Assembly (NCBI GenBank): GCA_003222395.1
Contig: QHWB01000058.1
Span: forward strand, 1-64,000
Reading direction: 5' to 3'
From: Acidobacteriota bacterium
GTDB taxonomy: Bacteria; Acidobacteriota; Vicinamibacteria; Vicinamibacterales; CAVVIG01
Length of the DNA: 64,000 nucleotides
This document shows, piece by piece, positions 66 through 61,473 of the stretch. Position 1 is the stretch's first letter, and each line of letters starts with the position of its first letter. Position numbers and translations under genes: made by a program. The notes beneath the pieces are model-generated. The model had not been told where the DNA came from. It made no database searches and saw only the letters and a program-made list of their open reading frames with translations.

Positions 66-163
66 CCGCTCGGCTAAAAGCCTCGCGCTACACGTGCGAT
101 TGCGCTCCGCTAAAGGCGTCGCGTTACAGTGACACGGTAGCGCGAGCCTTTCAGGCGAGCGTC
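66..163. repeat. Cluster of three short palindromic repeats
   Basis: Three degenerate copies of the palindromic repeat family lie side by side between the Mo subunit and the presumed FAD subunit. They are at 66-92 (plus; core GCTAAAAGCCTCGCGCTACA), 102-128 (plus; core GCTAAAGGCGTCGCGTTACA) and 137-163 (inverted; GTAGCGCGAGCCTTTCAGGC and onward). The inverted copy is nearly identical to the copy at 60228-60255 and the reverse complement of the one at 35909-35935. The cluster could fold in the operon mRNA and affect transcript stability. Confidence 0.75.
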
Positions 164-3783: not shown

Positions 3784-5916
3784 TCAGTGTTGAGTGCTTC
3801 GTCCGTCGCCGGGCAGCCGGAATGCGATCAGCTCGCCGCTGTAATTCCCGCCGCTGATCGCGAGCACGAGATACTGCTTGCCGTTCACCAGGTAGGTCAT
3901 CGGCGATCCGCTTTGCGGCGCCGGCATGTACACCGATCCGATTTCGTTTCCGGTTGCCTTGTCGTAGGCGATCAGCTTCGCGCCGCGCTGCCCGTTGGCC
4001 TGCGTCGCGAATCCGCCTTCGCCCGCGATGGCCAGCGTCTTGGTGACGAGCACACCGATGCGTCCCTGACGGCCCGTCTTCGGGATGTTGACGCCCTTCA
4101 GCGCCGGATGATTCCTGATGTTGTCGGGCGTATCGCCGTGCGCGATCTGCCAGACGATTTCGCCTTTGTTGAGATCGATCGCGGTGATGCGGCCGTACGG
4201 CGGCTTGATCAACGGTAGTCCCTGGATCGTGAGACCGCCGCCGCCTTCACCACCGCGCCCGCCGCCTTGTCCCGGCGCGCCGGCTTCACTCAAGGCGGGA
4301 CCGCCGCGGCCGCCGCCTCCTGCCCGTCCCGCGGCTCCAGCCCCTGCGGCCGGACTAGGGACGGGCGCATTCGGATCGCGCGCCGTCCCCTGCGTGTAAT
4401 CGAAATCCTGCTTCGCCGGATCCGCTTTCACCAGACCAAGCGCCGTCACGTTCGTGTTCGTGAAGATGTAGAAGATTTTCGTTTCGGGATCGAACGCGCC
4501 GCCCTCCCAGTTGGCGCCGCCTGTCGCCGACGGCAGCATCAGCGTCGCGAGCGGGCTCGGCCACGTGCTCACCACGGGCGGCGTGAAGATTGGTCCCAGC
4601 TTGTAGCGCGACGCGAGCTTCAGCGCTTCCTGGCGCAGCTCCGGCGTGAAATCGATGAGATCGTCGACCGACACGCCCTGACGCTCGTACGCCGGCGGCC
4701 TGGTCACGAACGGCTGCGTCGGCGAATACCACTCGCCCGGCACCGTGCCTTTCTCAACGGGGCGTTCCTCGATCGGCCACACGGGCTTGCCGTTGGTGCG
4801 ATCGAAGACGTACAGCCATCCTTGCTTCGTCGGTTGCGCGACCGCTTTGATTTGCCGGCCGTTCACGGTGATGTCGGCCAGAATCGGCGCGCACGGGATG
4901 TCCATGTCCCAGATGCCGTGGTGCACGAGCTGGAAGTGCCACTTGCGCTGACCCGTCTTCAGATCGAGCGCGACGAGGCTCTCGCCGAAGAGTCCGTTGC
5001 CGGGACGATGACCGCCGTAGTAGTCGCCCGTCGGCAGCTCCACAGGCAGGAACACCGTGTTCGTCTCTTCGTCGACGGTCATCTGTGCCCACACGCCCGC
5101 GTTGCCGGTGTAGGCCCACGAATCTTTTTCCCACGAGTCGTTGCCGAACTCGCCGGCCTGCGGAATCGTGTGGAAGATCCACAAACGCTTGCCGGTGCGC
5201 GCGTCGTAGCCGCGGATGAATCCCTTTTCGTGAATGCGGCTCTTCGGCGATCCGCCGGGCAGGTGCGCGGCGCCGACGACGATGACGTCCTTGGCGATGA
5301 TCGGCGTCGCGTGCAGACCGATCTCACCCGTCACCGGATCGACTTTCTGGTCGTCGTCCGTTTTCAGATCGACGATGCCGTTCTCGCCGAATCCTTTCAC
5401 TGGCACGCCGGTCTTCGCGTCGAGCGCGACCATGCGGTAGCCGGGCGTCACGTACACGACGCGCGACTCTTTTCCTCCAGGGCCGTCGGTCCAGTACGCG
5501 AGCCCGCGTCCCGAGAGCTGACGCGGCGCCGACTCGCCGCGCTTCCCCTCGTTCTCGCTGTGCATCCACAACAGCTCGCCGGTGGCCGCGTCGAGCGCGA
5601 CGACGGCGCGGCGCGTGCCGGCGGTCGCGTAGAGAATGCCGTCGATCATCAACGGCGTCCCCTGCAGATTGAACTCGGGACGCGGTCCGAGGAAGTCCGT
5701 CTTGAAGCGCCAGGCGACCTCGAGGGTCTTGAAGTTGTCCTTGTTAATCTGATCGAGCGGCGAGTAACGCGTGCTCGCCAGATCGCCGCCGTAGGTCCAC
5801 CATTCGCCAGGTTTCGGTTTCACCTGACGTCCGGCGTCAGCCGGACTTTGACCAAAGATGCCGGCGTTCATCGAGACGAGCGCGAACGCGAGCGCGAAGA
5901 GGGCTGACTTTCGCAT
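3784..5916 (-). CDS. PQQ-dependent glucose/alcohol dehydrogenase-like quinoprotein
   Basis: The protein is 710 residues from the ATG that opens a clear signal peptide (MRKSALFALAFALVSMNAGI). An ATG at 5928, four codons further upstream, is less likely. It is an eight-bladed PQQ beta-propeller of the membrane glucose dehydrogenase/pyrroloquinoline dehydrogenase type: WWTYGGDLASTRYSPLDQIN opens the first blade, with repeated ALDAATGELLW and IWDMDIPCAPILAD motifs and the C-terminal GGNYSGELIAF. It lacks the five N-terminal membrane helices of E. coli Gcd and has no CxxCH, so it is probably a soluble periplasmic form that needs an external electron acceptor. A Gly/Ala/Pro-rich insert at about residues 535-590 (GGGGRGG and GGGRGGEGGGG runs) is unusual. 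It is divergent from GluQRS with almost no space between the two starts. Confidence 0.88.
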   Translation of the reverse strand: MRKSALFALAFALVSMNAGIFGQSPADAGRQVKPKPGEWWTYGGDLASTRYSPLDQINKDNFKTLEVAWRFKTDFLGPRPEFNLQGTPLMIDGILYATAGTRRAVVALDAATGELLWMHSENEGKRGESAPRQLSGRGLAYWTDGPGGKESRVVYVTPGYRMVALDAKTGVPVKGFGENGIVDLKTDDDQKVDPVTGEIGLHATPIIAKDVIVVGAAHLPGGSPKSRIHEKGFIRGYDARTGKRLWIFHTIPQAGEFGNDSWEKDSWAYTGNAGVWAQMTVDEETNTVFLPVELPTGDYYGGHRPGNGLFGESLVALDLKTGQRKWHFQLVHHGIWDMDIPCAPILADITVNGRQIKAVAQPTKQGWLYVFDRTNGKPVWPIEERPVEKGTVPGEWYSPTQPFVTRPPAYERQGVSVDDLIDFTPELRQEALKLASRYKLGPIFTPPVVSTWPSPLATLMLPSATGGANWEGGAFDPETKIFYIFTNTNVTALGLVKADPAKQDFDYTQGTARDPNAPVPSPAAGAGAAGRAGGGGRGGPALSEAGAPGQGGGRGGEGGGGLTIQGLPLIKPPYGRITAIDLNKGEIVWQIAHGDTPDNIRNHPALKGVNIPKTGRQGRIGVLVTKTLAIAGEGGFATQANGQRGAKLIAYDKATGNEIGSVYMPAPQSGSPMTYLVNGKQYLVLAISGGNYSGELIAFRLPGDGRSTQH

Positions 5917-5926
5917 AATGCGCGCC

Positions 5927-6790
5927 ATGATATCGCGTTTCGCGCCGGCGCCGACCGGGTTCCTGCACCTCGGTCACGTCGTGAACGCGATTTACGTCTG
6001 GGGCAACGCGCGGCGGATTCTTCTTCGGATCGAGGACCACGATCGGCAGCGGAGCCGCCCGGAATTCGAGGCGGCCATCGTCGCCGATCTCGACTGGCTC
6101 GGGTTCACGTGGGACGGACCCATCGTGCGGCAGAGCGCACGCAGTGACATCTATTCACAATCGCTCGATCGGCTCAGACGTTCGGGTCTGGTGTACGCGT
6201 GCAATTGTTCGCGCGCGGAGATCGCGGCAGATGTGGCGCGGCCCTTTCAGGGCCGCGCCGGCGGGCCTGAAAGGCCCGCCCCACCGTACCCGGGCACGTG
6301 TCGCGATCGCGGCGTCATTGAAGGACCCGGCGTCGGCATCCGCGTGCGACTCGAGCCTTCGGTCGAACGCTTCGTCGATCTGCGCCATCGCCTGCAAGAG
6401 CAGCGGCCGCACGAGCAATGCGGCGATCTGCTCGTCCGCGATCGCGAGGGCAACTGGACGTATCAGTTCGCGGCGACCGTCGACGATTTCGAGCAGGGCG
6501 TCACGCTCGTCGTGCGCGGAGATGATCTGCTGCCGTCGACCGGACGCCAGATTCAGCTCGCGCGGCTTCTTGGACGCACCGAGCCGCCGTCGTTCCTGCA
6601 TCACCTGTTGATAATGAAGCGACCGGGACAGAAACTGAGCAAATCGGACCACGACACCGGCGTCCGCGACCTGCGCGCGCAGGGGTGGAGCGCGCCGCGC
6701 GTCATCGGTCAGGCCGCGTATCTTGCGGGGCTGATTCCAGAACCGCGAGACCTTCGCGCCGACGACGTCTCGTCTATCATGGCGCCATGA
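5927..6790 (+). CDS. gluQ: Glutamyl-queuosine tRNA(Asp) synthetase (GluQRS)
   Basis: This 287-residue class I aminoacyl-tRNA synthetase fragment attaches glutamate to the queuosine base of tRNA(Asp). Evidence: an N-terminal HIGH-type motif (FAPAPTGFLHLGH, residues 5-17), a KMSKS-type motif KLSKS (236-240), and the zinc site Cys-x-Cys ... Tyr-x3-Cys (CNC ... YPGTC). It lacks the anticodon-binding half of GltX, as GluQRS should. In E. coli the second Cys and the Tyr are separated by 11 residues; here there are 27. The extra 16 residues (VARPFQGRA ...) are encoded by a palindromic repeat at 6233-6284. Its TGA overlaps the next ATG (ATGA), so it is coupled to the tannase. Zinc binding and activity with the insert are uncertain. 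Confidence 0.9.
   Translation: MISRFAPAPTGFLHLGHVVNAIYVWGNARRILLRIEDHDRQRSRPEFEAAIVADLDWLGFTWDGPIVRQSARSDIYSQSLDRLRRSGLVYACNCSRAEIAADVARPFQGRAGGPERPAPPYPGTCRDRGVIEGPGVGIRVRLEPSVERFVDLRHRLQEQRPHEQCGDLLVRDREGNWTYQFAATVDDFEQGVTLVVRGDDLLPSTGRQIQLARLLGRTEPPSFLHHLLIMKRPGQKLSKSDHDTGVRDLRAQGWSAPRVIGQAAYLAGLIPEPRDLRADDVSSIMAP
6233..6284. repeat. Paired palindromic repeat inside GluQRS coding sequence
   Basis: Two adjacent stem-loops in opposite orientation: the first is centred on GCGGCCCTTTCAGGGCCGC, the second on GGCGGGCCTGAAAGGCCCGC, and the pair is bounded by GTGG and CCAC. This is a BIME-like arrangement of the family with core CCTGAAAGG. It is read in frame through the zinc-binding loop of GluQRS, adding about 16 residues with no stop codon or frameshift. 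A second copy of the same pair lies about 590 bases downstream in the next gene. Confidence 0.9.
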
Positions 6791-8301
6791 AGAAACGCTT
6801 CCTGGTCGTACTGACCGTTGTCTTGGTGGCGCGGCCCTTTCAGGGCCGCGCGATCTGCGGGCCTGCAAGGCCCGCCCTATCGGACCACGCCGAATGCTCG
6901 CATCTCGTGATGCTGAAATTTCCCGACGTCAAGGTGACCGAAGCGACGGCGGTCCCCGCCGCCCAGGGGGCAACGTCCGGCGCGATTCGGGTGCCGCACT
7001 GCAAGGTGAGCGGCGTCATCGGCACCGAGATCAAGTTCACGCTGCTGCTGCCCAACGAGTGGAACGGGAAGTTCTTCATGGGCGGCGGCGGCGGATTCGT
7101 CGGCACGGTGCAGAACTCGGCGCAGTCGACGGTCAATCTGGGCTACGCGACGGCGGGCACCGATACCGGCCATCAGGGCGGCGCCGTCGAGGCCGGGTGG
7201 GCGCTCAACAACATCGAGCGCCGCGTCAACTTCGGCTACCTCGCCGTGCACCGCACGGCCGACGTCGCGAAGTCCATCGTCCTTAGCTACTACGGATCCG
7301 CGTCCACCCGCAGCTATTTCAGCGGCTGTTCGCGCGGCGGCGGTCAGGCGATGATGGAAGCGCTGCGCTATCCCGACGATTTCGACGGGGTCGTGGCAGG
7401 CGCGCCGGCGATGGACTGGACGGGCATCGGCGCGCAGTTCATCAAGGACGCGCAGGCGGCGTTTCCCGCCGGCGCCTCGGCGCCGCTCCTCACGCCCGAT
7501 GTCCTCAAATCGATCGACGCGCAGATCATGGCTGCGTGCGATGCGCTCGACGGCGTGAAAGACGGGACGATGGAGGATCCGCGGCGCTGCACGTTGTCGG
7601 TCGACAAAATGACCGGCCTCACCGACGCGCAGCGGATCGCGCTGAAGAAGATCTACTCGGAGACGCGCGCGCGGGACGGCGTCCTGTTCCCCGGCCAGCC
7701 GTACGGCGGCGAAGGGGAGCTGCAGGGATGGCCCGCGTGGATTACCGGCGCGCCGCTGCCGGGACAGACGGCGCCGAGCCTCCGGGTCGGCTTCGGTACC
7801 GAGCTGTTCAAGTATTTCGTGTTCAACGATCCGGCGTGGGATTACACGAAGTACCAGTTCGCGAACTTCAGGAAGGACACCGAGCTGACCGCCAGCTATC
7901 TCAACTCGAACGATCCGAAACTCGACGCGTTCAAGGCGAACAATCACAAAGTGATCATGTGGCACGGCTGGGCGGACGCGGGTCTCTCGCCGCTCGGCAC
8001 GACAGAGTTCTACGAGCAGGTCGAGGCGCGCGATCCGAACGCGCGCGACTTCTTCCGCCTTTTCATGCTGCCCGGTGTGCTGCACTGCGGCGGCGGTCGC
8101 GGCCCCGACACCGTTGATTGGGTCTCCGCGATCGTCGACTGGGTGGAGCATGGCAAGGCGCCCGATCGCCTCGTGGCGCGAAAGGCCGCCACCGCCGGTG
8201 GCGCGATCGAGCGCACGCGTCCGCTGTGCCCGTACCCGCAGCACGCGGAGTACACCGGCACCGGCAGCACCGACGAGGAAAAAAACTTCGTGTGCAGGTG
8301 A
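6787..8301 (+). CDS. Tannase/feruloyl esterase-family hydrolase, secreted
   Basis: The protein has 504 residues; its ATG overlaps the GluQRS stop. It is a serine esterase of the tannase/feruloyl esterase (chlorogenate esterase) family, which cleaves phenolic esters of plant material. The nucleophile motif is FSGCSRGGGQAM. The acid is probably the Asp in GWADAGLSP, and the His is in VLHCGGGRGPD. The Cys next to the nucleophilic Ser and the Cys after the His form the disulfide typical of this family. The hydrophobic leader MKKRFLVVLTVVLVA is followed directly by a palindromic repeat that encodes VARPFQGRA and GPARPA before the mature start near HAECSHLVML. The insertion falls at the signal-peptide cleavage region and may have changed the cleavage site. 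Confidence 0.9.
   Translation: MKKRFLVVLTVVLVARPFQGRAICGPARPALSDHAECSHLVMLKFPDVKVTEATAVPAAQGATSGAIRVPHCKVSGVIGTEIKFTLLLPNEWNGKFFMGGGGGFVGTVQNSAQSTVNLGYATAGTDTGHQGGAVEAGWALNNIERRVNFGYLAVHRTADVAKSIVLSYYGSASTRSYFSGCSRGGGQAMMEALRYPDDFDGVVAGAPAMDWTGIGAQFIKDAQAAFPAGASAPLLTPDVLKSIDAQIMAACDALDGVKDGTMEDPRRCTLSVDKMTGLTDAQRIALKKIYSETRARDGVLFPGQPYGGEGELQGWPAWITGAPLPGQTAPSLRVGFGTELFKYFVFNDPAWDYTKYQFANFRKDTELTASYLNSNDPKLDAFKANNHKVIMWHGWADAGLSPLGTTEFYEQVEARDPNARDFFRLFMLPGVLHCGGGRGPDTVDWVSAIVDWVEHGKAPDRLVARKAATAGGAIERTRPLCPYPQHAEYTGTGSTDEEKNFVCR
6826..6880. repeat. Paired palindromic repeat inside tannase signal-peptide region
   Basis: This is the same two-stem arrangement as at 6233-6284: a GCGGCCCTTTCAGGGCCGC stem, then a CGGGCCTGCAAGGCCCG stem (one loop change, TGAAAG to TGCAAG), ending in CCCGCCCTAT. 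It is read in the same frame as in GluQRS, so the peptide VARPFQGRA appears in both proteins. It lies at codons 14-31, just after the hydrophobic core of the leader. Confidence 0.88.
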
Positions 8302-10928: not shown

Positions 10929-10955
10929 GGGCGGGCCTGAAAGGCCCGCCCTACA
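10929..10955. repeat. Palindromic repeat abutting the CBS-like gene start
   Basis: A near-perfect palindrome centred on GGGCCTGAAAGGCCC and ending CCCGCCCTACAC, the consensus form of the family. Only three bases separate it from the GTG start of the next gene, so it occupies the normal ribosome-binding position and could hide or replace the Shine-Dalgarno site. Confidence 0.9.
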
Positions 10956-26503: not shown

Positions 26504-26586
26504 GTGACGTCCTGTTCTAGATACGCGCGCGGGCTACGGCCGCGCGCGTCAGCGCGCGGGGGTGGGGCCCCGCGCGAATTAAGAAA
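26504..26586 (+). repeat. L-element copy C, upstream of the hydrolase gene
   Basis: It has the complete short form: GTGACGTCCTGTTCTAGATA, then a GC-rich stem (GCGCGCGGGCTACGGCCGCG), GCGGGGGTGGGGCCCCGC and the end GCGAATTAAGAAAA. It lies in the gap between the aldo/keto reductase and the hydrolase, ending 10 bases before the hydrolase ATG, in the same orientation as both genes. Confidence 0.8.
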
Positions 26587-32910: not shown

Positions 32911-33145
32911 TGTGACGTTCTGTTCTTGATACGTCCTCGCGCAGCGCCTGCGGCTCGAGCGAGCGCGAACGCGCAAGCGAGGCGCGCGGGGGTGGGGCCC
33001 CGCGCGCTTTGGGAAGAGTCGCGAAGGCGTCTGCGCGTGCCAGCCTTGAGCCGTTGCGAGGCGCGCATGCGCCGAGCAACAGCGGCGGGGGTGGGGTCCC
33101 CGCCGCGATCGAAAAATGTCGGGCCCCACGCGAAAGTAAAAAGTG
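32911..33145 (+). repeat. L-element copy D (long form), between cytochrome c and PQQ gene
   Basis: This is the longest single copy. Head TGTGACGTTCTGTTCTTGAT, then the first hairpin unit (GCGCCTGCGGCTCGAGCGAG ... GGGGTGGGGCCCCGCGCG), a second unit (CAGCCTTGAGCCGTTGCGAG, hairpin GGCGCGCATGCGCC, GGCGGGGGTGGGGTCCCC, GAAAAATG), and the tail GGGCCCCACGCGAAAGTAAA. It lies exactly where the 562-residue paralogue has a direct ATGA overlap, so it looks inserted into a cytochrome-PQQ operon. Confidence 0.85.
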
Positions 33146-34992: not shown

Positions 34993-35919
34993 ATGTATAC
35001 ACGACGTGAGTTCGGCACGATGGCACTCGCGGGTCTGGCCGTTCCGCGGTTTCTCGACGCCGCGACGAGCGCGCTCGTCAACGGCGTGCGCCTCGGCGTG
35101 CAGACCTACAGCTTCCGCGACCTGCCGCGGACGCCCGGCAGTGACATGGTCGATCCGCTGATCAAAGCGATGCTCGAGTGCGAGCTCGTCGAGTGCGAGC
35201 TGTGGGCGCCGCAGCTGGAGCCGCAGTTCGACAGCGGCGCGCGCGGCCGGCGCGGCCAGCCGCCGCCGCCGGAAGCGGTGAAGGCGCGCGAGGATCTCCG
35301 CAAGTGGCGGCTCGAGACGCCGCTCGATCACTTCCGCGAAATCGGCACCAGGTTCAAGAAGAACGGCATCACGATTTACGCGTACAACTACAGCCCCAAC
35401 GCCAGCTACACAGACGCCGAGATCGACCGTGGATTCGAGATGACCAAAGCGCTCGGCGCGGAGATCATCACCGCCTCGACCACGCTCGACGTCGCGAAGC
35501 GGATCGCGCCGCTGGCGGAAAAGCACAAGACGATCGTCGCGATGCACGGCCACTCGAACGTGACCGACCCGAACGAGTTCGCGACGCCCGACAGCTTCGC
35601 GGCGGCGATGAAGATGTCGAAGTACTTCAAGGTGAACCTCGACATCGGGCATTTCACGTCGGCGGACTTCGATCCGGTCTCGTACATCCGTGAGCATCAT
35701 GCCGACATCACGAACCTGCATCTGAAGGATCGCAAGAAGCACCAGGGCGACAACACGCCGTGGGGCCAGGGCGAGACGCCGATCAGGGAGGTCCTGCAGC
35801 TGTTGAAGCGCGAGAAGTGGCCGATCCGCGCCTATATTGAATACGAGTACAAGGGGCAAGGCACTCCGGTCGAAGAAGTGAAGAAGTGTCTCGCGTACGC
35901 CAAGGCGGCGCTCGCCTGA
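34993..35919 (+). CDS. Tat-exported sugar phosphate isomerase/epimerase-like TIM barrel
   Basis: The protein has 308 residues. The leader YTRREFGTMALAGLAVPRFL is a Tat signal. The xylose isomerase-like TIM barrel starts at GVRLGVQTYSFRDLP. Metal-site residues are suggested by CELWAPQLEPQ (Glu), MHGHSNVTDPN (His), LDIGHFTSADFDP (Asp, His), NLHLKDRKKH (His) and AYIEYEYKG (Glu). Family members isomerise, epimerise or dehydrate sugars; the exported location suggests action on oxidised sugars in the periplasm. Its TGA stop lies within a palindromic repeat (35909-35935), so the last codons AALA may be repeat-derived. An L-element precedes it. Confidence 0.87.
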   Translation: MYTRREFGTMALAGLAVPRFLDAATSALVNGVRLGVQTYSFRDLPRTPGSDMVDPLIKAMLECELVECELWAPQLEPQFDSGARGRRGQPPPPEAVKAREDLRKWRLETPLDHFREIGTRFKKNGITIYAYNYSPNASYTDAEIDRGFEMTKALGAEIITASTTLDVAKRIAPLAEKHKTIVAMHGHSNVTDPNEFATPDSFAAAMKMSKYFKVNLDIGHFTSADFDPVSYIREHHADITNLHLKDRKKHQGDNTPWGQGETPIREVLQLLKREKWPIRAYIEYEYKGQGTPVEEVKKCLAYAKAALA

Positions 35920-35935
35920 AAGGCTCGCGCTACAG
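35909..35935. repeat. Palindromic repeat supplying the TIM-barrel stop codon
   Basis: CGCTCGCCTGAAAGGCTCGC followed by GCTACAG: the consensus form of the second sequence variant. It is the reverse complement of the copies at 137-163 and 60228-60255. The TGA of its loop (CCTGAAAG) is the stop of the upstream gene. Confidence 0.88.
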
Positions 35936-35954: not shown

Positions 35955-36110
35955 GTGACGTTCTGTTCTAGATACGCCCTCGCGCTACGGCGCGAGGGGT
36001 CAGCGCGTGACAGCCTTGAGCCGTTGCGAGGCGCGTACGCGCCGAGCAACAGCGGCGGGGGTGGGGCCCGCCGCGATAGGGAAATGCGGGGCCCCACGCG
36101 AGAGTAAAAA
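35955..36110 (+). repeat. L-element copy F (long form), upstream of a Gfo/Idh/MocA gene
   Basis: Head GTGACGTTCTGTTCTAGATA, hairpin CCTCGCGCTACGGCGCGAGG, then CAGCGCGTGACAGCCTTGAG, hairpin GGCGCGTACGCGCC inside GTTGC ... GCAAC, GGCGGGGGTGGGGCCCGCCG, GGGAAATG, and the tail GGGGCCCCACGCGAGAGTAA ending in AAAAATG, whose ATG is the start codon of the next gene. It is the best copy for defining the family. Confidence 0.88.
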
Positions 36111-40983: not shown

Positions 40984-41103
40984 CGCGTGGGGCCCGACCT
41001 TGTCTTATTGCGGCGGGGACCCCACCCCCGCCGCTGTCGCTCGGCTCGTTCGCGCCTCGCAACGGCTCAGGGCTGTCACGCGCTGACGCCCTCGCAACAT
41101 TGA
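40984..41103 (-). repeat. L-element copy H (long form), after phosphofructokinase
   Basis: Minus-strand reading: GTCAGCGCGTGACAGCCCTG, GTTGCGAGGCGCGAACGAGC, CAGCGGCGGGGGTGGGGTCC, CCGCCGCAATAAGACAAGG, GGGCCCCACGCGTTA. It lacks the GTTCTAGATACG head. It lies between the convergent ends of the phosphofructokinase gene and the zinc-ribbon gene, facing the former. Confidence 0.78.
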
Positions 41104-58911: not shown

Positions 58912-61437
58912 TTAGTTTCTCCGCCCCAGGAACGTCGGGCTCTCGACGATTCCTAGAATGAGCGACGACCAGCGGTACTCGTGCGCCGCCGCGTCGCGGA
59001 CAATCTTTCTCACGGCCGGACGATCGGTGTATTCGAGCGGCCGGCCGAGCGCGTAGGCCAGAAGCTTTTCGGTGACGGTGCGCGGGAACTGATCCGGGCG
59101 ACCGAGCAGCAGCGCGCGCAATCCGGTGAGGCCGTTTATCTCGACGCCGCTCGTCGTCGTGCCGCGTGCGTCGACCGGTTTCCCCGATTCATCGATCGAG
59201 CGCCAGCCGCCGATCACGTCGAAGTTCTCGAGCGCGAACCCGAGAGGATCGATCGCCGAGTGACAGCTGTTGCACGACGGGTTCTTCCGATGTTCGGCCA
59301 GCCGCTCGCGTATCGACGTCGGCGGGGCGCCGGGTCTGACGTTCAGGTTCATGTCGACGCCGGGCGGCGGCGGCGGAATAGGCAGGCCGAATATGTTGTT
59401 CAGCAGCCATTTGCCGCGCAGCACCGGCGACGTGCGATCGGGATACGACGTCGTGGCCAGAAGCGCGCCCTGCGCGAGCAGGCCGCCGCGCTGATCGTGA
59501 TTCGGCAGCGACACCCGGCGAAAGCGGCTGCCGTAGATTCCCGGAATCCCGTACTGGCGCGCGAGCCGTTCGTTGACGAACGTGTAGTCCGCATTCAGCA
59601 GATCGACGACGCTCCTGTCCTCCCGGATGGTGCTGCCGACGAACAGCTCCGTCTCCCGCTGGAACGCCTGCATCAGGCTCAGGTCGTAGTTCGGATACCG
59701 TTCCGGATCGACGACGACTTCCGAGACGCGCCGCAGGTTCAGCCACTGGGCCGCGAAGTCGGTGACGAGGGCGTCGGTCGCGCGCGGATCGGCGAGCATG
59801 CGCCGAACCTGCTCGTCGAGCACAGCCGGCTTCGTCAGTTGCCCGCGCTCTGCCAGCGACAAGAGATCGTCATCGGGGATACTGCTCCAGAGAAAGAACG
59901 ACAGCCGCGACGCGACTTCGAGATCGGTCAGATGATCGGCGCCCGGCCGATGAACGCGCAGCAGGAAGTCGGGATCGACCAGCATCCGTTCGAGCGCGAA
60001 CTGAATCGCGGTGTCAAAGGAGCCGCCGTCGTTGCGACGGCTCGTGAAGAACTCGAGCAGCGTTTGCACGTCGCCATTGGTCACCGGGCGGCGATAGGCG
60101 AGGCGCGCCAGCCTCGAAAGGATCTTCGAAGCGCACGCGGTTTCATCTGCAGCGAGCTTCGGCCGGCAGACGAAAATCGCGCGCCGGCTCGGCGTGTTGT
60201 TGGCATCGTTGTGACGCGCGCCTTCTGTGTAGCGCGAGCCTTTCAGGCGAGCGTCATCGCGGTACGGGCCCCCAATCTGCACCGACCCGACGCTCGCGTA
60301 GCCCATGTAGACCTGATCGTCGGTAATGACGCGGCCGCGCTGCAGCGGCTGCGGCAAACCTTCGGGCGCCCACAGCTCTCTCACGAACGAGACGCCAACC
60401 AGATGCGGTCCGGCGCCGACCGGCACGCGGACTTCGAGTCCCGCGTCTCCGCCGATCTGCATGTACTTTTCCCACGAGTCGTCGCCGGCAAACCCGGGCT
60501 CGCCGTCGCCGGCGTAGCTCGATGCGGCGGGCCTGCCGTGCGCTCCACCGCCGACCGTGAAGCGCTTCAGCAGCTTGCCATCGAGACGGACGTCGAGTTG
60601 CTGCGGCCATCCCATGCCCTTGATGTAGTCCTGGTACTGCCGCTGCAGACGAACCTTGATCAGGTACTCGCCTTCGACCGGAAAGTCGTGGTGAATCGCA
60701 AGGCCGCCGCGCGATCCGAACGGCAGATCCTCGCTCTGGCGCTCGTCCTGCACGACGTGAAGGGGAATCTCGAACGTCTCGACGCGAGGGCTCGACGGCG
60801 GAAGACCTATGGCGAGCCGCGTCACCTGACGAGCGACCGACAGATAGCGTTCGAGATGGGCCGTCGAGATCGAGAGCGCATCCGCGAAGTTGTCGAAGCT
60901 GCCATCCGCGGTTTCGTCGCCCGGCAGCAGCGACTTCACGTCGAAGCTCAGAGGATCGAGCGCGAACAGGTCGCGCACGGCGTTGCCGTATTCGGTGCGA
61001 TTGAGGCGGTGGACTGCGCTGATTCTTCCTGGATTCGGATTCGCGATCCACGCGCGATCGATTTCCGTCTCGAGCCAGCCCGCGACGGCGTCATACGTGG
61101 CGGCGTCGGGACGCGGCCTCCCCGGCGGCGGCATCGAGCCGGCGCGGAGCTTCGCGATGACGCGCTCCCACACTTCTGCGTTTGCAGCCGGTCTCGTGAC
61201 GTCGACCGCGTCGAGCATCATCCCGGCGGTGCGAAGCTTCTGGTTGTGGCAGGTGATGCAGTACTGATCGAGGACGGCCTGCGGTGATGCGGGGCTCGTC
61301 TGACCGCCCGACAGCGAGGCGACGCCGCCGCCGATCAGCAGCGCGAAGATCGTGGCGCGCGCCGCCTGCGCACGCCACGACGGTCGCCGCGCTCCATGTC
61401 CCGCAACCGGCATTCGCGCACGCCCTCCGAACGGCAT
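58912..61437 (-). CDS. DUF1592 family haem protein (DUF1587/1592/1588/1585)
   Basis: The protein has 841 residues. After a leader (RATIFALLIGGGVASLSGG) comes a haem motif CITCH with QKLRTAGMMLDAVD, then DUF1587 (ISAVHRLNRTEYGNAVRDLF), a carbohydrate-binding-like middle region, DUF1592 (VASRLSFFLWSSIPDDDLLS), DUF1588 (SYPDRTSPVLRGKWLLNNIF with PSCNSCHSAIDPLGFALENF) and DUF1585 at the C-terminus. The second CNSCH may bind a further haem. Residues 395-404 (DARLKGSRYT) come from a palindromic repeat at 60228-60255 and lengthen a loop before TPSRRAIFVC compared with relatives. Function is unknown; an exported redox or degradation complex with the DUF1552 protein is possible. Confidence 0.92.
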   Translation of the reverse strand: MPFGGRARMPVAGHGARRPSWRAQAARATIFALLIGGGVASLSGGQTSPASPQAVLDQYCITCHNQKLRTAGMMLDAVDVTRPAANAEVWERVIAKLRAGSMPPPGRPRPDAATYDAVAGWLETEIDRAWIANPNPGRISAVHRLNRTEYGNAVRDLFALDPLSFDVKSLLPGDETADGSFDNFADALSISTAHLERYLSVARQVTRLAIGLPPSSPRVETFEIPLHVVQDERQSEDLPFGSRGGLAIHHDFPVEGEYLIKVRLQRQYQDYIKGMGWPQQLDVRLDGKLLKRFTVGGGAHGRPAASSYAGDGEPGFAGDDSWEKYMQIGGDAGLEVRVPVGAGPHLVGVSFVRELWAPEGLPQPLQRGRVITDDQVYMGYASVGSVQIGGPYRDDARLKGSRYTEGARHNDANNTPSRRAIFVCRPKLAADETACASKILSRLARLAYRRPVTNGDVQTLLEFFTSRRNDGGSFDTAIQFALERMLVDPDFLLRVHRPGADHLTDLEVASRLSFFLWSSIPDDDLLSLAERGQLTKPAVLDEQVRRMLADPRATDALVTDFAAQWLNLRRVSEVVVDPERYPNYDLSLMQAFQRETELFVGSTIREDRSVVDLLNADYTFVNERLARQYGIPGIYGSRFRRVSLPNHDQRGGLLAQGALLATTSYPDRTSPVLRGKWLLNNIFGLPIPPPPPGVDMNLNVRPGAPPTSIRERLAEHRKNPSCNSCHSAIDPLGFALENFDVIGGWRSIDESGKPVDARGTTTSGVEINGLTGLRALLLGRPDQFPRTVTEKLLAYALGRPLEYTDRPAVRKIVRDAAAHEYRWSSLILGIVESPTFLGRRN
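60228..60255. repeat. Palindromic repeat inside the DUF1592 coding sequence
   Basis: TGTAGCGCGAGCCTTTCAGG followed by CGAGCGTC, nearly identical to 137-163. Read on the minus strand it encodes DARLKGSRYT in frame. Related proteins are shorter at this point, which supports an insertion between the conserved GGPY and TPSRR segments. Confidence 0.85.
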
Positions 61438-61473
61438 TTTACGTCCGCCCCGAGGGCGATGGCGCGTTTTGTG

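Follow-up and report, generated by a model that had tools for sequence, protein, structure and literature searches.

The stretch of DNA considered here, the first 64,000 nt of contig QHWB01000058.1 from an Acidobacteriota bacterium (GCA_003222395.1; this stretch is the window, and coordinates are its positions unless another stretch is named), carries two adjoining genes, one for GluQRS, the tRNA glutamyl-Q(34) synthetase, and one for a tannase-like protein, and each is interrupted by what appears to be the same palindrome, read in the same frame. The question is how a palindrome comes to lie in frame in two such genes, and whether the peptide that it encodes matters. The answer we favour, with a probability of roughly 0.77, is that both palindromes are copies from a family of repetitive extragenic palindromic (REP) sequences, arranged as REP doublets forming hairpins (REPINs), which survive where frame and fold tolerate them, and that the peptide is probably filler.

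Both palindromes are present where the first-pass annotation had placed them, at 6233-6284 in GluQRS and 6826-6880 in the tannase gene. The GluQRS copy has the layout GTGGCGCGGCCCTTTCAGGGCCGCG - CC - GGCGGGCCTGAAAGGCCCGCCCCAC, an inverted pair of palindromic units with a GTGG head on each, and is thus a head-to-head REPIN of 52 nt, coding for GluQRS residues from about 103 to 120. The tannase copy has the same unit 1, a degenerate unit 2 and a spacer longer by 3 nt; the first 26 nt (GTGGCGCGGCCCTTTCAGGGCCGCGC) are common to both copies and the second stems differ. The common reading phase that had been claimed, with VARPFQGRA followed by a GP...RPA segment, is also borne out, the products being VARPFQGRA-GGPERPAPP in GluQRS and VARPFQGRA-ICGPARPAL in the tannase. 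The stretch VARPFQGRAGGPERPAPP is part of the predicted repeat-carrying product. The predicted folds have energies of -45.6 kcal/mol for the GluQRS copy and -42.7 kcal/mol for the tannase copy (z -6.1 and -4.9), and in each case none of 200 shuffles was as good.

The units belong to a repeat that is widespread in the genome. A pattern covering families A and B, GTRGSGCGRSSCTTTCAGSSCNGSS, is found with up to 2 mismatches at 599 places in the 7.74-Mb genome (reversed control 0), and the exact 25-mer of the first unit at 17. Family A is GTAGCGCGAGCCTTTCAGGCGAGCG, family B, to which both window palindromes belong, is GTGG[C/G]GCGG..CTTTCAG..CCGC, and family C is GTAGCGCAGGCCTTYAGGCCTGC, which has family D as its partner. 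Most units in the census described below have a GTGG (B) or GTAG (A) head that ends an imperfect palindrome, GTGG being in our reading a GTAG-like head. By its head, its dispersed high copy number and its inverted doublets the element can be assigned to the REP/REPIN class of the GTAG superfamily. Head-to-head B doublets have a modal length of 52 nt, seen in 9 of 12 that lie in frame in genes and in 9 of 17 elsewhere; as this length prevails in both settings it is a property of the element itself, and for a 52-nt doublet to be in frame 2 further nt must accompany the element or be gained. A pattern for the REP of the relatives has matches in 18 of 27 genomes, the reversed control giving one match, in the window genome itself.

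Family B is concentrated in the window genome, with 119 matches at up to 1 mismatch. Among 99 other sampled genomes of the class 93 have none and 6 have some, with a maximum of 11, in a sample that excludes the related genome G017, where at least one B REPIN is present. A search of the genome for Y1 transposases at E up to 0.001 gives a single match, a REP-associated tyrosine transposase (RAYT; NCBIfam NF047646, 100.5 bits, cut-off 80), which is flanked by a long family A array upstream and inverted A copies downstream (L031, about 864-1405 and about 1935-2056). The array before the RAYT has a period of 37 bp with GGATATCACC in the spacer. The same RAYT may also move family B.

With regard to GluQRS, the protein has PF00749 above the cut-off, and its best NCBIfam matches are GluQRS models, below their own cut-offs (NF004315 at 235.7 bits, cut-off 250). 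The closest named GluQRS proteins are from metagenome-assembled genomes, one from Acidobacteria (68%), one labelled Cyanobacteria (62%; we doubt the label) and one from Luteitalea (61%). The zinc site, which from the E. coli enzyme we take to be Cys-x-Cys ... Tyr-xxx-Cys, has its ligands retained on both sides of the insert in an alignment of 16 sequences, which omits fragments from G011 and G022 and paralogous GltX matches. (G0nn labels denote related genomes compared, and L labels sequence stretches of the window genome (L031) or of these relatives.) The first-pass annotation put the spacing from the second Cys to the Tyr at 27 residues, 16 of them added by the repeat to what is presumably 11 in E. 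coli, but there are 26, and the spacing across the 16 proteins runs from 16 to 53, with 16-18 in 6 of the 15 others. We therefore rejected E. coli as the reference for loop length, orthologues within the family being already at 16-18, and measured against these short forms the net gain is about 8-10 residues, since part of a variable loop gave way to the 17-18 residues coded by the repeat. That the peptide derives from the repeat is upheld, as VARPFQGRA is in none of the 15 other aligned GluQRS proteins and the repeat is a genome-wide family.

An AlphaFold2 model of GluQRS built with the insert from seven sequences has a mean pLDDT (predicted local distance difference test score) of 86.5, and residues 105-119, within the REPIN-coded segment, are the only segment of 3 or more residues below 50. 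Since this is the only long segment of low confidence, the model makes the insert a floppy loop next to the zinc site. A Foldseek search with the model puts several glutamyl-tRNA synthetases at the top, with E. coli GluQRS (4a91, 1nzj) further down among the matches.

The tannase assignment comes from PF07519, and the gene starts in an ATGA overlap with the GluQRS stop (6787-6790). An annotation error at this start is unlikely, since six orthologues have, as judged by eye, a similar hydrophobic N-terminal stretch in the same place; the alignment has 7 sequences, a G020 fragment being omitted.

How often do such copies lie in frame inside genes? The 147 analysable clusters of families A and B (up to 2 mismatches) include 44 in frame inside genes, and there are 30 with coding sequence on the same strand on both sides and the frame broken or stopped, 11 between opposite strands and 62 with coding sequence on one side or neither. 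The ratio of 44 in frame to 30 broken or stopped gives p 3.7e-6 against an expectation of one third. The codon model behind the calls was right about the frame for 193 of 200 test pieces, each of 150 nt and taken from its own training open reading frames (ORFs). There are thus 103 clusters not called in frame, while both of the copies discussed above are intragenic; the classifier misses the tannase copy, which has only 39 nt of gene upstream, and a stricter earlier version also missed that in GluQRS. When up to 4 mismatches are allowed the in-frame count becomes 47 of 152 clusters. The in-frame share is higher for B (27 of 71) than for A (16 of 74), a marginal difference (Fisher p 0.045), and phase 0 is over-represented among the B clusters that lie in frame (20 of 27, 13.7 expected, p 0.012). 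For families C and D, 9 of 34 are in frame in the same genome, and 10 of 47 analysable clusters in G006, in regions chosen for their REPs.

A Pfam scan covered 40 ORFs carrying 43 of the 47 clusters, with GluQRS scanned apart and clusters 20, 31 and 41 left out. In many cases a single domain match spans the insert: HutH, ComEC DUF4131, DUF2085, siroheme-synthase NAD_binding_7, DcuC, molybdopterin oxidoreductase, DUF1223, M16 peptidase, PP2C, amidase, PMT_2, amidohydrolase (two inserts), methyltransferase and GluQRS, and also aldose epimerase, where the unit is weak with 4 mismatches. In MutS, galactokinase, Lhr, a MrfA-like helicase and prolyl oligopeptidases the insert is between domain matches. 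Three scanned ORFs had no Pfam match, and several others hold the insert outside the matched domains.

In five genes we compared the site of the insert with the same site in relatives. As they were picked for carrying an insert in the window genome, they show where inserts are tolerated and not how many hot loops there are. For four of the five (GluQRS, tannase, MutS and siroheme synthase) REPs occupy the same loop in other genera. In the GluQRS loop G005 and G006 carry a family C REP in the same phase as here, with exact positions that differ. In G020 (L061) this loop has an in-frame 12-bp tandem array (ATCCAGGATCRG) read as IQDR/IQDQ repeats (IQDRIQDR), so tandem repeats also use the site. 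At the tannase site G017 has a family C REP, G006 a decayed REP and G023 a different palindrome, and no repeat was seen by eye in G005, G019 or G022.

The MutS segment (24 sequences, omitting a G008 fragment and G006, which has only 43% identity) is 38 residues long in seven proteins and 57 in the window genome, a net gain of 19. G020 has a REPIN in this loop, there are decayed REPs in G017 and G019, and G013 has another palindrome. All four carriers of a REP-like loop belong to one group of ten genomes in the MutS tree (support 90/92), with empty loops of 38 residues interspersed in G005, G021, G022 and G023. For siroheme synthase (25 sequences from 24 genomes, omitting that of G011, which has stops) the segment is 39 residues in 14 proteins and 55 in the window genome, a net gain of 16. 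As the net changes against empty orthologues are 19 and 16, flanking residues have changed too. G017 carries an inverted B REPIN at the corresponding codon of the alignment (L330 14028-14079), 51 of its 52 bases matching the reverse complement of that in the window genome; the proteins are 70% identical, the repeat flanks differ, and it is the only B REPIN found in 336 kb of G017. There is also an exact family A unit in the siroheme synthase gene of G023, and decayed units in G022 and G005.

The fifth gene, hutH, for histidine ammonia-lyase, is different: in an alignment of 11 sequences that omits fragments, a REP was seen only in the window genome (a family A doublet), and the relatives have other repeats. 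G006 (L290) has a long in-frame palindrome (GGGGTCAGATCTTGATTCTTTCG...) of the GGGGTCAGATC type and G021 a tandem array. G017, G019, G009 and G018 (L287, L292, L293, L294) have a charged Arg-rich segment, for example RGERNERRENKGSLR, that looks like another repeat family.

Twelve loop segments were scored against a REP consensus, with 2000 random segments of G017 for comparison, and 10 of the 12 were equalled by only 0-4 of these. The siroheme synthase REPIN of G017 was outside this scoring and consists of two zero-mismatch units. REPs are otherwise sparse in G017, with 2 units in 18 regions not selected for repeats (about 296 kb) and 45 matches to the family C pattern in the whole genome (6.3 Mb), and yet 2 of the 5 loops examined there have a clear REP.

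The explanation that we prefer for these observations is as follows. REPIN copies, typically of 52 nt with GTGG heads, would be moved, presumably by a RAYT transposase of the Y1/HuH type. Copies in genes would survive if the frame is kept, no stop codon is brought in, and the site is a loop, a linker or the end of a signal peptide, harmful insertions being purged by selection. Survivors would be translated as about 17-18 flexible residues, most likely without a dedicated function. The same loops would be permissive in related genera, where they have been occupied, perhaps in independent events, by several REP families and by unrelated repeats.

Several points weigh against this. The census sample of 1.30 Mb was partly drawn around known B copies, and its gene calls rest on the codon model and not on annotation or expression. 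In C14:1-400000, chosen as a large contig and without any of the 34 exact cores, 4 of 18 clusters are in frame. REPs are two-fold depleted from genes, the in-frame share being 30% as against 66% (1295 of 1960) for random 52-nt windows, and family A has no phase preference (8 of 16, 8.8 expected). No RAYT with adjoining B copies was found in the genome. The loop segments were chosen by eye, and inserts may pull alignments together; two of the twelve scored no better than chance and were dropped as REPs, 846 of 2000 random segments doing as well as the GluQRS loop of G017 and 1844 of 2000 as well as the siroheme synthase of G021, and the MutS REPIN of G020 is in another phase than that of the window genome. 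Finally, the recurrent occupancy could also come from one old insertion renewed by gene conversion.

On that last account, each gene would have had one old insertion, later overwritten by the current REP family of each genome. We think this fairly unlikely. One old insertion with losses and renewal would fit the MutS tree, in which the four carriers group together among empty ones, and the decayed REPs in the same frame in some relatives (the tannase of G006, MutS of G017 and G019) also speak for it. However the interspersed empty MutS loops count against it, as do the variation between genomes in REP family, in orientation and, for GluQRS, in exact codon, and the presence of unrelated repeats, the 12-bp tandem units and the long GGGGTCAGATC palindrome, in the same loops.

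It is distinctly improbable that the in-gene REPINs are mainly nucleic-acid elements, acting as mRNA hairpins that pause or stabilise or as DNA sites for gyrase and the like, with the peptide a by-product. The very stable predicted folds would fit, and such roles of REPs elsewhere are discussed in the main text of Di Nocera et al. 2013 (PMC3733652), but this account does not predict the phase preference of family B (A has none), and a search of 5900-7100 against Rfam gave nothing near a gathering score, the only match being a weak one to sbcD (17.3 bits, gathering score 40).

We regard it as more improbable still that the peptide itself is selected, the extra loop altering GluQRS activity and the tannase gaining a signal-peptidase site (AQA or GRA). 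The frame common to both genes could suggest it, as could the sequence AVAQAFRPA that the G017 tannase has at the place of the insert, but the loop differs in sequence from genus to genus and has several unrelated origins, and the low model confidence of the GluQRS insert is what one expects of a flexible loop. Least probable, although the first-pass annotation thought it likely, is that one of the two copies gave rise to the other through local duplication or gene conversion: they are 593 bp apart with 26 identical nt, but their identity needs no local event because the exact 25-mer occurs at 17 places, the second stems, spacer and flanks differ with no identical flanking bases, and another REP family occupies both sites in other genera.

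The features of the window are collected in the table. Besides these, a group of perfect inverted repeats built around a GGGGGTGGGG-type centre recurs at 26553-26576, 32982-33007, 33082-33106, 36052-36074 and 41010-41034; by eye these are not REPs of families A-D.

Table. Genes and REP units in the 64,000-nt window
Feature	Position	Strand	Basis or location
GluQRS (tRNA glutamyl-Q(34) synthetase) gene, 287 aa	5927..6790	+	PF00749, NCBIfam GluQRS models, orthologues
REP unit 1, family B, GTGG head, exact consensus; codes VARPFQGR	6233..6257	+	in GluQRS
REP unit 2, family B, GTGG head	6260..6284	-	in GluQRS
Tannase/feruloyl-esterase family gene, 504 aa	6787..8301	+	PF07519, 338 bits
REP unit, family B, exact; end of signal-like stretch; codes VARPFQGR	6826..6850	+	in tannase
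Degenerate second REP unit (ATAGGGCGGGCCTTGCAGGCCCGCA); spacer 3 nt over 52-nt form	6856..6880	-	in tannase
Lone family B REP, GTAG head, not called in frame	10930..10954	-	
Lone family A REP, called in frame	60229..60253	+	in PSD-domain (DUF1592/1588/1585) protein, ORF 58915-61473 on minus strand
Lone family A REP, not called in frame	35909..35933	-	
Lone family A REP close to window edge; outside census rows	137..161	+	

With regard to known systems, the Rickettsia palindromic elements (RPEs) of Ogata and colleagues are reportedly palindromes inserted in frame into protein genes that are unrelated to one another, and maintained there as extra peptide. The first-pass annotation drew this parallel, and it holds in that the repeats of the window genome also lie in frame in unrelated protein genes and would become extra peptide. 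However they are not members of the Rickettsia group, because their heads are GTGG or GTAG instead of CGTC: RPE-4 and RPE-6 are described in the main text of PMC3733652 as CGTC-tagged repeats without a dedicated transposase, whereas the genome studied here has a RAYT. The REP nature of the units and their REPIN arrangement, the presence of a RAYT, and the occupancy of these loops in further genera all go beyond the first-pass annotation.

The finding is not of a new kind of element, because in-frame intragenic REPs were described in 2013. The main text of PMC3733652 reports intragenic GTAG-tagged REPs and doublets, tRNA-synthetase genes included, and the likeness extends to GTAG-type heads, palindromic units, RAYTs and in-frame copies. 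It also has one example, recB of Xanthomonas, in which two species carry REPs at about the same site. However most of the REPs described there are intergenic, whereas here about 30% of the sampled clusters are in frame in genes, and there are same-loop REPs in four of five genes across genera, from several families and with unrelated repeats as well. The REPINs of P. fluorescens (Bertels and Rainey 2011, PMC3116915) are likewise inverted REP doublets with RAYTs and hundreds of copies; in the main text the inverted doublet is the proposed replicative unit, and one core 16-mer begins GTGG. In strain SBW25 only 14 of 1,067 core 16-mers overlap genes by that account, as against 44 of 147 clusters in frame in genes here.

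REPs in Acidobacteriota seem to be in print already. A table in the RepRanger paper (2025, PMC12306157) lists genomes of Granulicella, Acanthopleuribacter and Chloracidobacterium. The main text of PMC3733652 has 'Acidobacter' once and mentions Koribacter with TIR-type transposase genes. The main text of the RepRanger paper, which never uses the words 'intragenic' or 'in-frame', says that REPs seldom overlap protein-coding regions, in contrast to the 44 of 147 in frame here. In the open-licence PMC literature, taken without supplements, we found no report of in-gene REPs of Acidobacteria, and neither this in-frame share nor same-loop occupancy over several genera and repeat families.

A bolder reading, which we offer only tentatively, is that these loops are standing landing sites for REPINs in this bacterial family, with coding-compatible elements returning to the same codon region across genera. 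Compatibility would lie in the 52-nt doublets, in a GTGG instead of a GTAG head (one stop fewer) and in two open phases. If this is so, target choice or survivorship would be continually re-writing those loops. The data suggest that selfish, translatable DNA repeatedly fills loops of housekeeping enzymes, and automatic annotation and phylogenies of these genomes include residues coded by repeats, which lack homology from one species to another. The recurrent loops may serve as natural replicated experiments on the sites at which proteins tolerate insertion, and offer a way to ask whether RAYTs choose their targets or whether only the survivors remain.

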